Source: a virus
DNA length: 37,438 bases
Virus record (IMG/VR): IMGVR_UViG_3300009103_002418
Location: 1 to 37,438 of that record
Reading direction: 5' to 3' (one strand)
Below, in pieces: positions 7,352-18,279 of this stretch (position 1 is its first letter; each line of letters begins with the position of its first letter). Below the pieces are notes generated by a model. It saw only the letters and a program-made list of their open reading frames with translations. It did not search any database and was not told the DNA's origin. The translations under genes and the position numbers were made by a program.

Positions 7352-7549
7352 ATGCCTTTATTCAAAAAGAAAAAAGACGAAGACAAAGATAAAAAACCAA
7401 ACGAAAGAAAAGAAAGCAGGAGAGACTTTAGACTCGCCAGAATACAAGAGGTAACAGCGAAGGCATACGCAGTTGCGGCCAAGAGGAAATGGCTATTCCT
7501 TATGATAGCAGCAGTAATTGTAGGCTATTTAGTATTTAAGTTTGCGTGA
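7352..7549 (+). CDS. basic single-pass membrane protein (65 aa)
   Basis: A very basic N-terminus (MPLFKKKKDEDKDKKPNE) and an Arg-rich helix are followed by one C-terminal transmembrane helix (WLFLMIAAVIVGYLVFKFA). This is a tail-anchored topology with the charged part in the cytoplasm. Its stop overlaps the next start in TGATGG. Function unknown; AGGGGATAA lies upstream at a longer than usual distance. Confidence 0.6.
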   Translation: MPLFKKKKDEDKDKKPNERKESRRDFRLARIQEVTAKAYAVAAKRKWLFLMIAAVIVGYLVFKFA

Positions 7550-7662
7550 TGGACGCAATAAAAGCTGGCCTTCTGGCGTGGACTATTGAGGTTGCTATAG
7601 CAGTTTTAATGTTTATACTCTTGAGGCATGAGGAAAACAAAGTTATCAAGAGAAGAAAATGA
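7549..7662 (+). CDS. 37-aa single-pass membrane protein
   Basis: It starts on the A of the previous TGA and ends in the ATGA overlap with the phosphomannomutase gene. The sequence MDAIKAGLLAWTIEVAIAVL continues as MFILLRHEENKVIKRRK: one membrane helix with a basic C-terminal tail, opposite in orientation to its upstream neighbour. A paired membrane complex is possible. Confidence 0.55.
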   Translation: MDAIKAGLLAWTIEVAIAVLMFILLRHEENKVIKRRK

Positions 7663-8360
7663 TTCACTACCTATTTGATGTCGATGGAACACTAACTCCG
7701 GCTAGAGGTACGATGGACAGGGGCTTTAAGCAATATTTTGGGAGATGGGTAAACAGGGTTAGGAGACAAGGTGGCGAAGTTTTTTTGGTAACTGGCTCAG
7801 ACAAGCCCAAGACCGTCCAACAGATAGGAACTGATTTATACAGATGTGTAAACGGCGTTTACCAGAACGGTGGAAACCAACTTTACGTTAGAAATAATGT
7901 AATAAAACAGGAAGAGTGGAGAATGGGTATACATCTACACCTAGACCTGCTACTGGTGCTGGACAAAAGCAGATGGGCTGGAACGGCGGGTGTCAACCTA
8001 GAAGAGCGAGTCGGAATGGTGAACTTCTCTACGGTGGGCAGAGACGCAACGCCAAAACAGCGTAAAACATACTACGAGTGGGACAAATCGCACGGCGAAA
8101 GGAAAAAGATTGCAGATTGGCTCTCAAACAGATACCCAAAACTGGAGTTTGCTATCGGTGGCGAGGTCAGCATAGATATATTTCCCAAAGGAAAAGATAA
8201 AAGCCAAGCGTTAAAGGACATGACGGGGGAAACGATCTTTTTTGGCAATAACTGCAACATGGGTGGCAACGACCATTCAATAGCCATGCAATCTGATAAA
8301 TACCACCAAGTTGACAACTGGAAAGAAACTAAATATATCATAAATAGTTATTACAGGTAG
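7659..8360 (+). CDS. phosphomannomutase-like HAD enzyme (233 aa)
   Basis: It resembles eukaryotic-type PMM, a HAD-IIB enzyme interconverting mannose 6- and 1-phosphate. LFDVDGTLTPAR carries nucleophile Asp7 and acid/base Asp9. The family's substrate and cap segments are visible: ERVGMVNFSTVGRDA, GERKKIADWL, FAIGGEVSIDIFPKGKDKSQAL, and the metal loop FFGNNCNMGGNDHSIA, where the usual first Asp of GD is Asn (GNN). The length is close to the family's usual 245. It is part of a sugar-phosphate group with the cupin at 9906, the nucleotidyltransferase at 10397 and the glycosyltransferase at 15867. The Asn substitution could lower activity or mark altered function. Confidence 0.88.
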   Translation: MIHYLFDVDGTLTPARGTMDRGFKQYFGRWVNRVRRQGGEVFLVTGSDKPKTVQQIGTDLYRCVNGVYQNGGNQLYVRNNVIKQEEWRMGIHLHLDLLLVLDKSRWAGTAGVNLEERVGMVNFSTVGRDATPKQRKTYYEWDKSHGERKKIADWLSNRYPKLEFAIGGEVSIDIFPKGKDKSQALKDMTGETIFFGNNCNMGGNDHSIAMQSDKYHQVDNWKETKYIINSYYR

Positions 8361-12342: not shown

Positions 12343-12351
12343 GGGGAATTG

Positions 12352-12642
12352 ATGTTTGAGTCTTTAGTTTTAGCGATGTGCCTTTTACTGCCGCAGGCAG
12401 ACCCAATATGGGGCAACGCAAAAACAGACCAAGAAAAATGTCAAGCGGAAGCTGACTACATGGCAAAGCATAAGAAGTTTTGTCACGTTGGAAAATGTAT
12501 AGGGAGATTTGAAGGTATCGGTTGGAGCAGAAGCTGTTCCTTTCCTAATACCTGCGTCCCCTCTAAGAAGATGCAACTAACTGGAGACGCCGTTGCGGTA
12601 ACTCAAAACGGCTATACCATCAGGGTTAGAAGCTGGAGATAA
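12352..12642 (+). CDS. secreted Cys-rich protein (96 aa)
   Basis: ATG at 12352 is used. A short signal-like segment (MFESLVLAMCLLLPQ) is followed by a compact domain with five further Cys (EKCQAEADYM, FCHVGKCIG, SCSFPNTC), likely disulfide-bonded in the periplasm, and a basic C-terminal strand. The spacing resembles small exported phage proteins of unknown function. It lies in a run of membrane and export genes before the tmRNA. Confidence 0.65.
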   Translation: MFESLVLAMCLLLPQADPIWGNAKTDQEKCQAEADYMAKHKKFCHVGKCIGRFEGIGWSRSCSFPNTCVPSKKMQLTGDAVAVTQNGYTIRVRSWR

Positions 12643-12643
12643 A

Positions 12644-12772
12644 ATGAAAAATCACTGGAACTTACTTGACAAAATAGCGAGAGTATCAATTATCCTTATG
12701 ATATGGTACATTGGCGGCTTTGTCCTTGGTTCCTCGGTTGTTTATTTTGTTCACTGGCTAGGTTTAATATAA
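12644..12772 (+). CDS. 42-aa membrane protein
   Basis: ATG lies 1 nt after the previous stop. MKNHWNLLDKIARVSI is followed by a long hydrophobic stretch (LMIWYIGGFVLGSSVVYFVHW) forming one or two short membrane helices. Its stop lies immediately before the tmRNA acceptor piece. A TTGACA at 12666-12671 within it has no good -10 partner. Confidence 0.5.
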   Translation: MKNHWNLLDKIARVSIILMIWYIGGFVLGSSVVYFVHWLGLI

Positions 12773-12775
12773 GTC

Positions 12776-13049
12776 CCCTAGTGGGCTAAACATGTAGACG
12801 TTGCTATTGAAGTAATGCAGGACGCGGGTTCGATTCCCGCCGCCTCCACTTTCCAAACTATGGGGGTGATCGGTTTCGACTGGTTGTGGATGTAGTAATT
12901 GCATGTGCTGGGTGATTAGAAGGGCCAGCTAAAAAATCTAATCAATTTTTAAGTGTCGAAGAGAATTTCGCACTGGCCGCCTAGCGGCCAACTGACTATT
13001 TAATAGTCACGGGGGGTTGCCCGCCCTTGCTACCCAAACGGGCGTTTTT
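12776..13049 (+). ncRNA. ssrA: circularly permuted (two-piece) tmRNA
   Basis: The acceptor piece comes first: ACATGTAGACGTTGCTA (P2 3' strand), then T arm GCGGG-TTCGATT-CCCGC, CGCCTCC and discriminator A at 12848. After 13 nt the coding piece starts at 12862 with GGGGGTGATCGG. GGGGGTG pairs with CGCCTCC in all seven acceptor positions (two G-U), and TAGTAA..GCATGT of the coding piece pairs with ACATGT..TTGCTA. A tag frame with a likely resume Ala GCT at 12928 ends GAAGAGAATTTCGCACTG plus GCC GCC TAG, coding ...EENFALAA. The stop sits in the loop of hairpin GGCCGC/GCGGCC; a GACTAT/ATAGTC hairpin and an H-type pseudoknot (GGGT/ACCC with GCCCG/CGGGC) follow, then T5. The tmRNA tags stalled products for proteolysis; the exact resume codon is uncertain. 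Confidence 0.93.
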
Positions 13050-13064
13050 ATTCAGGAGAACACT

Positions 13065-13586
13065 TTGCTGATTGATCTAATCTATAGGGACTATAAACCT
13101 AACGACTGGGATAACATATTTTTTTCAGAAGCGGTTTTATGGTCAAGAAGAAGCCATGATAGCCAGACGCAATGTGGGTGTGTGTTAGTCAAAAACAAGA
13201 CATCTATTGCCACTGGATATAATGGTTTTATGAGAGACATAAATGACAGAGCATTACCCAGCACCCGACCGGACAAGTATCCGTTTATGATTCACGCCGA
13301 AGCCAACGCGATATACAATTGCGCCAGAGAAGGGAACTCAACACTTGGAGCCAGAGCTTATATCACAGCCCCCCCTTGCACCGCTTGCTTGCAGATGTTA
13401 TGGCAATGCGGGGTACATGAAATCTATTTTTCAGACATGTCCTCACCCAAGGGTGATATATGGTCTAAGAAATATGAAGAGGTGTTAAAACAAATTGGAG
13501 ATCGGCTCACCATAAGACACATACCCAAAAAAGCCCTTGACAGCGCGTTTCTTGTGGAAAGCGCAGAAAAATTTGAAAATATTTGA
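13065..13586 (+). CDS. deoxycytidylate (dCMP) deaminase (173 aa)
   Basis: The zinc-dependent deaminase motifs are complete: HAEANAIYNCAREG (His ligand and catalytic Glu) and PPCTACLQMLWQCG (two Cys ligands), with the N-terminal SEAVLWSRRSHDSQTQCGC-type segment. The enzyme converts dCMP to dUMP for dTMP synthesis. TTG at 13065 is the likely start because CAGGAGAA lies 7 nt before it; more upstream starts would lie in the tmRNA pseudoknot. It fits with NrdAB, MazG-like and dNMP kinase in this window. Confidence 0.9.
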   Translation: MLIDLIYRDYKPNDWDNIFFSEAVLWSRRSHDSQTQCGCVLVKNKTSIATGYNGFMRDINDRALPSTRPDKYPFMIHAEANAIYNCAREGNSTLGARAYITAPPCTACLQMLWQCGVHEIYFSDMSSPKGDIWSKKYEEVLKQIGDRLTIRHIPKKALDSAFLVESAEKFENI

Positions 13587-17745: not shown

Positions 17746-18279
17746 ATGGTAAATATTGAACAAAGAAATATTAGAGATATTATTGACACAGATGATTTTG
17801 AGTGTATCTCCAGAACCAATAAGATCGACGCAGATGATGTATATAAAATTCTCAAGAAGGCATCGTCGAGCTTTAGGTATTCCCTCTCTCAGGACGAGTT
17901 GATGACCTGTTGCATTACCGCCCTCTGGAAGGCCGTTGAAAAATACTGCACAGATTCCAATTGTAAATTTACAACCTATCTTTACAAGGGTGTTGTAATG
18001 GAATGTCTTAGCCAGAAAAAATTTAACAAAAACAAGCTTACTCTTGGTGGTAAATTACACCCAAATATACGAGATAATAGCAATCAGTATGAACCTATAG
18101 ACATGATTGACGAGATCAATGTTGCCTGCGAAGACCCGAACCTAATCATAGACAGGTACTATAAAAATATGTCTATTAAGGAGATTGCTGAGGTTAGGGG
18201 GGTTTGCGGCGAAACAATAAGAATTAAAATCAATAAAAATCTAAAAAAGTTGAGACTTTCTTTACTAAAAAGTGTATAA
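17746..18279 (+). CDS. phage RNA polymerase sigma factor (177 aa)
   Basis: Region 2-like sequence (LSQDELMTCCITALWKAVEK, then FTTYLYKGVVMECLSQKK) is followed by a helix-turn-helix region 4 (NMSIKEIAEVRGVCGETIRI, then KINKNLKKLRLSLL). The size and compact architecture match T4 gp55-like late sigma factors or small ECF-like sigmas, which redirect host core polymerase to late promoters. It precedes the putative virion/lysis block, consistent with a late regulator. Its last codons include the AAGTGTATAAT box of a candidate promoter for the next gene. Confidence 0.82.
   Translation: MVNIEQRNIRDIIDTDDFECISRTNKIDADDVYKILKKASSSFRYSLSQDELMTCCITALWKAVEKYCTDSNCKFTTYLYKGVVMECLSQKKFNKNKLTLGGKLHPNIRDNSNQYEPIDMIDEINVACEDPNLIIDRYYKNMSIKEIAEVRGVCGETIRIKINKNLKKLRLSLLKSV

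Follow-up and report, generated by a model that had tools for sequence, protein, structure and literature searches.

The stretch of viral DNA analysed here, referred to as the window, is 37,438 nt long (IMG/VR record IMGVR_UViG_3300009103_002418, an uncultured virus), and at 12773-13044 it carries a circularly permuted, phage-encoded tmRNA gene. The covariance model for permuted tmRNAs (RF04321, tmRNA_permuted; gathering score 47) matches 12790-12984 on the plus strand at 85.6 bits (E 3.2e-15), with all 213 model positions covered and the acceptor half before the coding half. A first-pass annotation of the same DNA, made from its letters, had described a permuted phage tmRNA of the two-piece type with this anatomy, and the search bears it out. 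The parts of the gene and its downstream neighbour are as follows:

12773-12786, plus strand: small hairpin (GTCC/GGGC) on the 5′ side of the acceptor half, read from the sequence; relatives pair here with other letters
12787-12848, plus strand: acceptor half, with the P2 3′ strands, the T arm and the 3′ acceptor strand, A73 at 12848 (RF04321, RF00023)
12790-12807, plus strand: P2 strands in the acceptor half (12790-12795 with 12901-12906; 12800-12807 with 12892-12899)
12824-12840, plus strand: T stem-loop GCGGG-TTCGATT-CCCGC (RF04321); two pairs are double-changed in relatives
12841-12847, plus strand: acceptor stem 3′ strand CGCCTCC, pairing with 12862-12868
12849-12861, plus strand: 13-nt intervening sequence CTTTCCAAACTAT, predicted to be excised; read from the sequence, 12-13 nt in relatives
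12862-13044, plus strand: coding half, with the 5′ acceptor strand, P2 5′ strands, PK1, tag, P5, a hairpin and the 3′ pseudoknot
12872-12880, plus strand: D-loop-like motif GGTTTCGAC in the coding half
12907-12943, plus strand: pseudoknot PK1 (stems 12907-12911/12925-12929 and 12914-12920/12937-12943)
12955-12984, plus strand: tag frame GTC GAA GAG AAT TTC GCA CTG GCC GCC TAG (VEENFALAA*)
12974-12990, plus strand: P5 hairpin TGGCCG-CCTAG-CGGCCA, whose loop contains the stop codon
12993-13009, plus strand: hairpin TGACTAT-TTA-ATAGTCA, paired with changes in relatives
13014-13049, plus strand: 3′ H-type pseudoknot (GGGT/ACCC and GCCCG/CGGGC; 13014-13043), then TTTTT
13065-13586, plus strand: dCMP deaminase gene (PF00383), directly 3′ of the tmRNA

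The earlier coordinates for A73 (12848) and G1 (12862), with 13 nt between them, proved exact, and the acceptor stem GGGGGTG/CGCCTCC seen across the permutation has 7 bp including U12845-G12864, the G3-U70 alanine identity pair, which is invariant in all six phages with the permuted gene. The acceptor half scores 54.2 bits on RF00023, and CCA is not encoded after A73, where CTT stands instead. The acceptor RNA likely begins close to the small hairpin at 12773-12786, whose equivalents in relatives read GTCCA/TGGAC in L037 and TGCC/GGCA in L210, where the end of a tRNA-Glu lies directly 5′ of it. From its pairing, P2 is the helix that would join both pieces. The T run after the 3′ pseudoknot may be a terminator and is not among the terminator-scan matches; a scan for promoters and terminators around the gene gave no signal above chance, and the folding energy of the RNA (z -1.64) is uninformative alone.

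Passing RF04321 does not by itself prove permutation, because in some Pseudomonadota genomes a one-piece 3′ end adjoins a match of 47-65 bits (for example, G070 C177 3287-3483), and the order of the halves in the window was for this reason also checked directly. A misread one-piece gene is ruled out, since there is no second acceptor half 3′ of the coding half; other T arms in the window lie only in tRNAs at ~5.1-5.2 kb. A second acceptor or coding half, as a remnant of tandem duplication, was likewise not found in the window. ARAGORN, which had been named as a check, called permuted tmRNAs in the relatives L037 and L209 and no tmRNA at the window gene, which it may miss because the window has one base fewer than its relatives after the acceptor stem. 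We assign the gene to the two-piece type from its order and sequence, on which its processing into two RNAs is also predicted.

Six distinct permuted members were found in IMG/VR, namely the window (with the near-identical L020), L037 (a 122-kb contig), L038, L209, L210 and L212. In the alignment of these phages, 98.5% of the paired cells of the acceptor stem, T stem, P2, PK1 and P5 hold a pair and 7 pairs (18 cells) are double-changed, compared with 34-49% paired and 0-1 double changes in controls with the partners slid by 1-3 columns. The acceptor stem is 100% paired, and so is P2, whose strands had been seen to match in the window, with one pair double-changed and six changed on one side. 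The first stem of PK1 has three double changes (GCTGG/CCAGC in the window and CGTAG/CTACG in L037), and its second stem is 90% paired. In addition, the further hairpin (12993-13009) and pseudoknot (13014-13043) of the earlier description are present, and both sides of their pairs co-vary in relatives, with TGACCT/AGGTCA in L037 and TGACCTA/TAGGTCA in L210 for the hairpin, and GCCAGT/ACTGGC and GCCAGC/GCTGGC for the pseudoknot. The L038 sequence (record G003, L154) has a run of 10 N within the tmRNA, 3′ of P5, which most likely fills a gap in the assembly or stands for withheld bases.

The window tag is VEENFALAA, with a small nonpolar tail and its stop in P5; the EENFALAA end and the stop codon in the loop of a 6-bp hairpin stand as first described, while the tag frame has one more codon at its start than had been supposed. 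Nine-codon tags across the permuted relatives read VEENFALAA, AEENFALVA and GVENYAMAA, and ARAGORN reports VEENFALAA* in L037 and the one-piece phages L041 and L042 and AEENFALVA* in L209. Because the nine codons stay in frame despite single-base indels directly 5′ of the tag among relatives, GTC, GCT or GGC is the most likely resume codon, and constraint acts on the gene. A longer tag, AKKSNQFLSVEENFALAA, was considered and rejected, as its frame shifts between relatives with these upstream indels whereas VEENFALAA stays in frame. Planctomycete tmRNA tags are presumably similar (AEENFALAA), a string that we did not find in the open-access literature. The intervening sequence had been thought unusually short; however, 13 nt is ordinary for permuted genes, which in a sample of 32 viral and ~80 bacterial loci have spacers of 5-34 nt (5-31 nt in pattern-matched permuted genes of other phages, and 6-7 or 26-34 nt in betaproteobacterial permuted genes of Rhodocyclales relatives).

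A search with the tag identified 12 further viral contigs with a one-piece tmRNA (L039-L046, L132, L133, L135 and L136), all with the tag VEENFALAA and with halves recognisably like those of the window; L134 appears alike, and its sequence is incomplete. These genes have the standard order, unlike the window, where the acceptor half lies 5′ of the coding half, and CCA is encoded by neither form. The phages that carry the two forms are close relatives: the window NrdA is 88% identical to that of the permuted phage L037 (G002), 87% to that of the one-piece phage L042 (G007) and 75% to that of the one-piece phage L041 (G006), and its RIIB is 92% identical to that of G002 and 87% to that of G007. 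No close isolate was found among known phages, the best NrdA match being Pelagibacter phage Mosig (55%), and a search for the host by tmRNA similarity brought up, in 299 Pseudomonadota genomes, nothing but short matches, most of them to the T arm. The window also encodes a membrane dipeptidase (Peptidase M19, PF01244; 6093-7310) that is kept in related phages at 50-80% and has even partial matches in only 11 of 50,697 phage records, with <32% identity among the matches listed. Other genes include an IMP dehydrogenase/GMP reductase gene (PF00478; 33357-34487) and a small sigma-factor-like protein (Sigma70 region 4, phage sigma factor family; 17746-18279) that is conserved in the clade.

The tmRNA lies directly upstream of the dCMP deaminase gene in one-piece form in L042 and L044 and in permuted form in the window and L038. 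In L037, L209, L210 and L212, the permuted gene sits within a tRNA cluster, which implies at least one relocation. A small gene (12349-12642 in the window) occurs together with the permuted tmRNA at both locations (12349-13049 in the window and 9738-10449 in L037).

Both halves of the permuted gene are akin to the phage one-piece gene. On the six permuted genes, coding-half HMMs of the phage one-piece group score 74-92 bits and those of alphaproteobacterial, betaproteobacterial and other phage permuted genes at most 25, and acceptor-half HMMs score 44-62 bits for phage one-piece genes, at most 49 for cellular one-piece genes and at most 40 for the permuted groups; the window itself scores 62 (acceptor) and 82 bits (coding) on the phage one-piece HMMs. 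With the halves put in one order, the core of the permuted targets is up to 72-77% identical to phage one-piece genes, at most 53% to other permuted genes and at most 55% to cellular one-piece genes. In a tree of 64 tmRNAs, on a core of ~210 columns, three permuted targets and nine phage one-piece genes fall into a single clade with support 100/99; this clade is not resolved in a second tree with more targets and a different sample, and a single group of all permuted genes is rejected in neither (p-AU 0.079 in the first, 0.15 in the second).

The first-pass annotation placed the source of the gene in an alphaproteobacterial host, and this is not supported. The alpha model (RF01849, alpha_tmRNA) gives the window 34.3 bits over a partial match, below its gathering score of 50, the alpha half HMMs give 6 and 2 bits, and the T-loop region of alpha genes is unlike that of the window; on these three comparisons, an alphaproteobacterial origin was rejected as the best reading. 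The cyanobacterial model, also named earlier as a check, falls below its cut-off as well (RF01851, cyano_tmRNA; 40.6 bits, partial, gathering 70). More broadly, the gene might have been taken from any bacterium with a permuted tmRNA, be it alphaproteobacterial, betaproteobacterial or cyanobacterial, as published for Melnitz. The permuted order would agree with such a donor, as would the relatives L037, L038 and L209, whose 53-63 bits exceed the alpha cut-off, and the window itself, which the beta model (RF01850, beta_tmRNA) matches at full length with 64.2 bits, below its gathering score of 84. However, true alpha and beta genes reach 253-297 and 288-316 bits on the same models, the halves score poorly on the alpha and beta HMMs, and no permuted gene with the ATGTAGA acceptor half turned up when 84,980 genomes were scanned for this pattern. 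A clade of target and betaproteobacterial genes is rejected in the first tree (p-AU 0.0003), whereas one of target and alphaproteobacterial genes is not formally rejected in the second (p-AU 0.10). We regard a bacterial donor of the permuted gene as very unlikely, and a separate circular permutation within the phage lineage is the simplest reading.

Within the phages, we infer that the change went from one piece to two: the one-piece form is the likelier ancestor because its complete genes match RF00023 end to end, at 98-118 bits. The opposite course, in which the permuted form is ancestral and the one-piece form was restored by a second permutation, has a precedent in the re-permutation reported for the mitochondrial tmRNA of Jakoba libera (PMC11915505), and the one-piece phage G007 falls, with weak support, among permuted phages in the RIIB and M19 protein trees. 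In two other gene trees, G007 lies outside the permuted phages, a conflict that is expected of mosaic phages, and recombination among phages explains its placement equally well. Given that the phage one-piece genes keep the full tag-to-P2 region, the regain of which is unlikely, and that the one-piece form occurs in a wider, more divergent set of phages, this reversal is hard to credit. The suggestion that the gene is a non-functional remnant, left for example by an element recombining at the tmRNA, would be in line with the one-base linker deletion in the window and with an exchange of acceptor halves in L046. There, at 7451-8304, an endonuclease VII gene (PF02945) comes after a complete one-piece tmRNA and before a stray acceptor half, and the latter matches the L039 subtype at 77 of 78 positions but the neighbouring L046 gene at only 48 of 78. 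Halves of a phage tmRNA have in fact been visibly shuffled in this contig, in what looks like an element swapping the 3′ half of the gene. Yet compensatory changes across the main helices, tag frames that are intact despite indels directly upstream, and G3-U70 retained in all six phages make a remnant extremely unlikely.

The established biology of two-piece tmRNA is that one transcript is cut by RNase P at G1 and processed at its 3′ side to A73, that CCA is added, and that the two RNAs pair through P2; tmRNA is charged with alanine, enters ribosomes in an SmpB-dependent manner and tags proteins for proteolysis. This account reportedly goes back to Keiler (2000) and to Sharkady and Williams (2004), papers to which PMC9004378 and PMC3978253 refer. 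We consider it highly probable that the window encodes a working permuted tmRNA that arose from the group's own one-piece gene, separately from the alphaproteobacterial, betaproteobacterial and cyanobacterial permutations. A single transcript would carry the acceptor half, the 13-nt spacer and the coding half; host RNase P would cut at G1 (12862), host 3′ tRNA processing would remove the spacer from A73 (12848), and a CCA-adding enzyme would complete the acceptor RNA. The two RNAs, held together by P2 and the acceptor stem, would be charged by alanyl-tRNA synthetase via G3-U70, and with host SmpB the complex would enter stalled ribosomes and add the nine-residue tag VEENFALAA, with its ClpXP-type LAA end. 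A search of 14 phage records gave no SmpB gene, which leaves this role to the SmpB of the host. The gene itself would have originated when a one-piece tmRNA that the phage group already had underwent circular permutation.

Two-piece tmRNA has been described as independently reached in three bacterial lineages (alphaproteobacterial, betaproteobacterial and cyanobacterial), all of them old, and the break is argued to aid tmRNA on the ribosome. It is quite probable that two-piece tmRNA arose separately in the virus lineage of the window, whose close relatives keep the unpermuted sister at the same locus. If true, this would be a further origin beside those three, with its unpermuted sister still visible, and a recent one that offers a before-and-after pair, permuted and unpermuted, in phages ~87-88% identical in NrdA. 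It would also be a fresh case for testing the duplication-and-loss model of gene permutation, in which tandem duplication is followed by loss of the outer halves (PMC3978253). The clade-specific covariance models call for caution, as they mislead on these phage genes: an alpha or beta label would suggest a false host or transfer history, and ARAGORN overlooks the window gene entirely.

Phage two-piece tmRNAs as such are already published, and in one study they account for 53 of the 133 distinct tmRNA structures from phages (PMC9004378). In the open-access literature, we found no report of a phage tmRNA whose permuted form goes back to a one-piece tmRNA of phages. Methylophage Melnitz, with its alphaproteobacterial-type two-piece tmRNA, and other marine phages encode a permuted tmRNA like the window; however, the ssrA of Melnitz is linked to alphaproteobacterial/SAR11 genes and other phage two-piece genes are tied to host lineages (PMC9004378), whereas the window gene groups with phage one-piece genes. 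A glutamine riboswitch as in Melnitz has no Rfam match near the window gene. With the bacterial permuted tmRNAs (RF01849, RF01850, RF01851 and the combined RF04321), the gene shares the order of the halves, the tRNA-like domain, P2, PK1 and the tag, but its P2 and coding-half sequences differ from theirs, as does its T arm from that of the alpha genes. Compared with the phage one-piece tmRNAs (L039-L046, L132-L136; RF00023), which keep the standard order and the full tag-to-P2 region, the window gene is permuted, yet it shares with them the tag VEENFALAA, PK1, P5, the acceptor half and the unencoded CCA and, with those of L042 and L044, the slot upstream of the dCMP deaminase gene.
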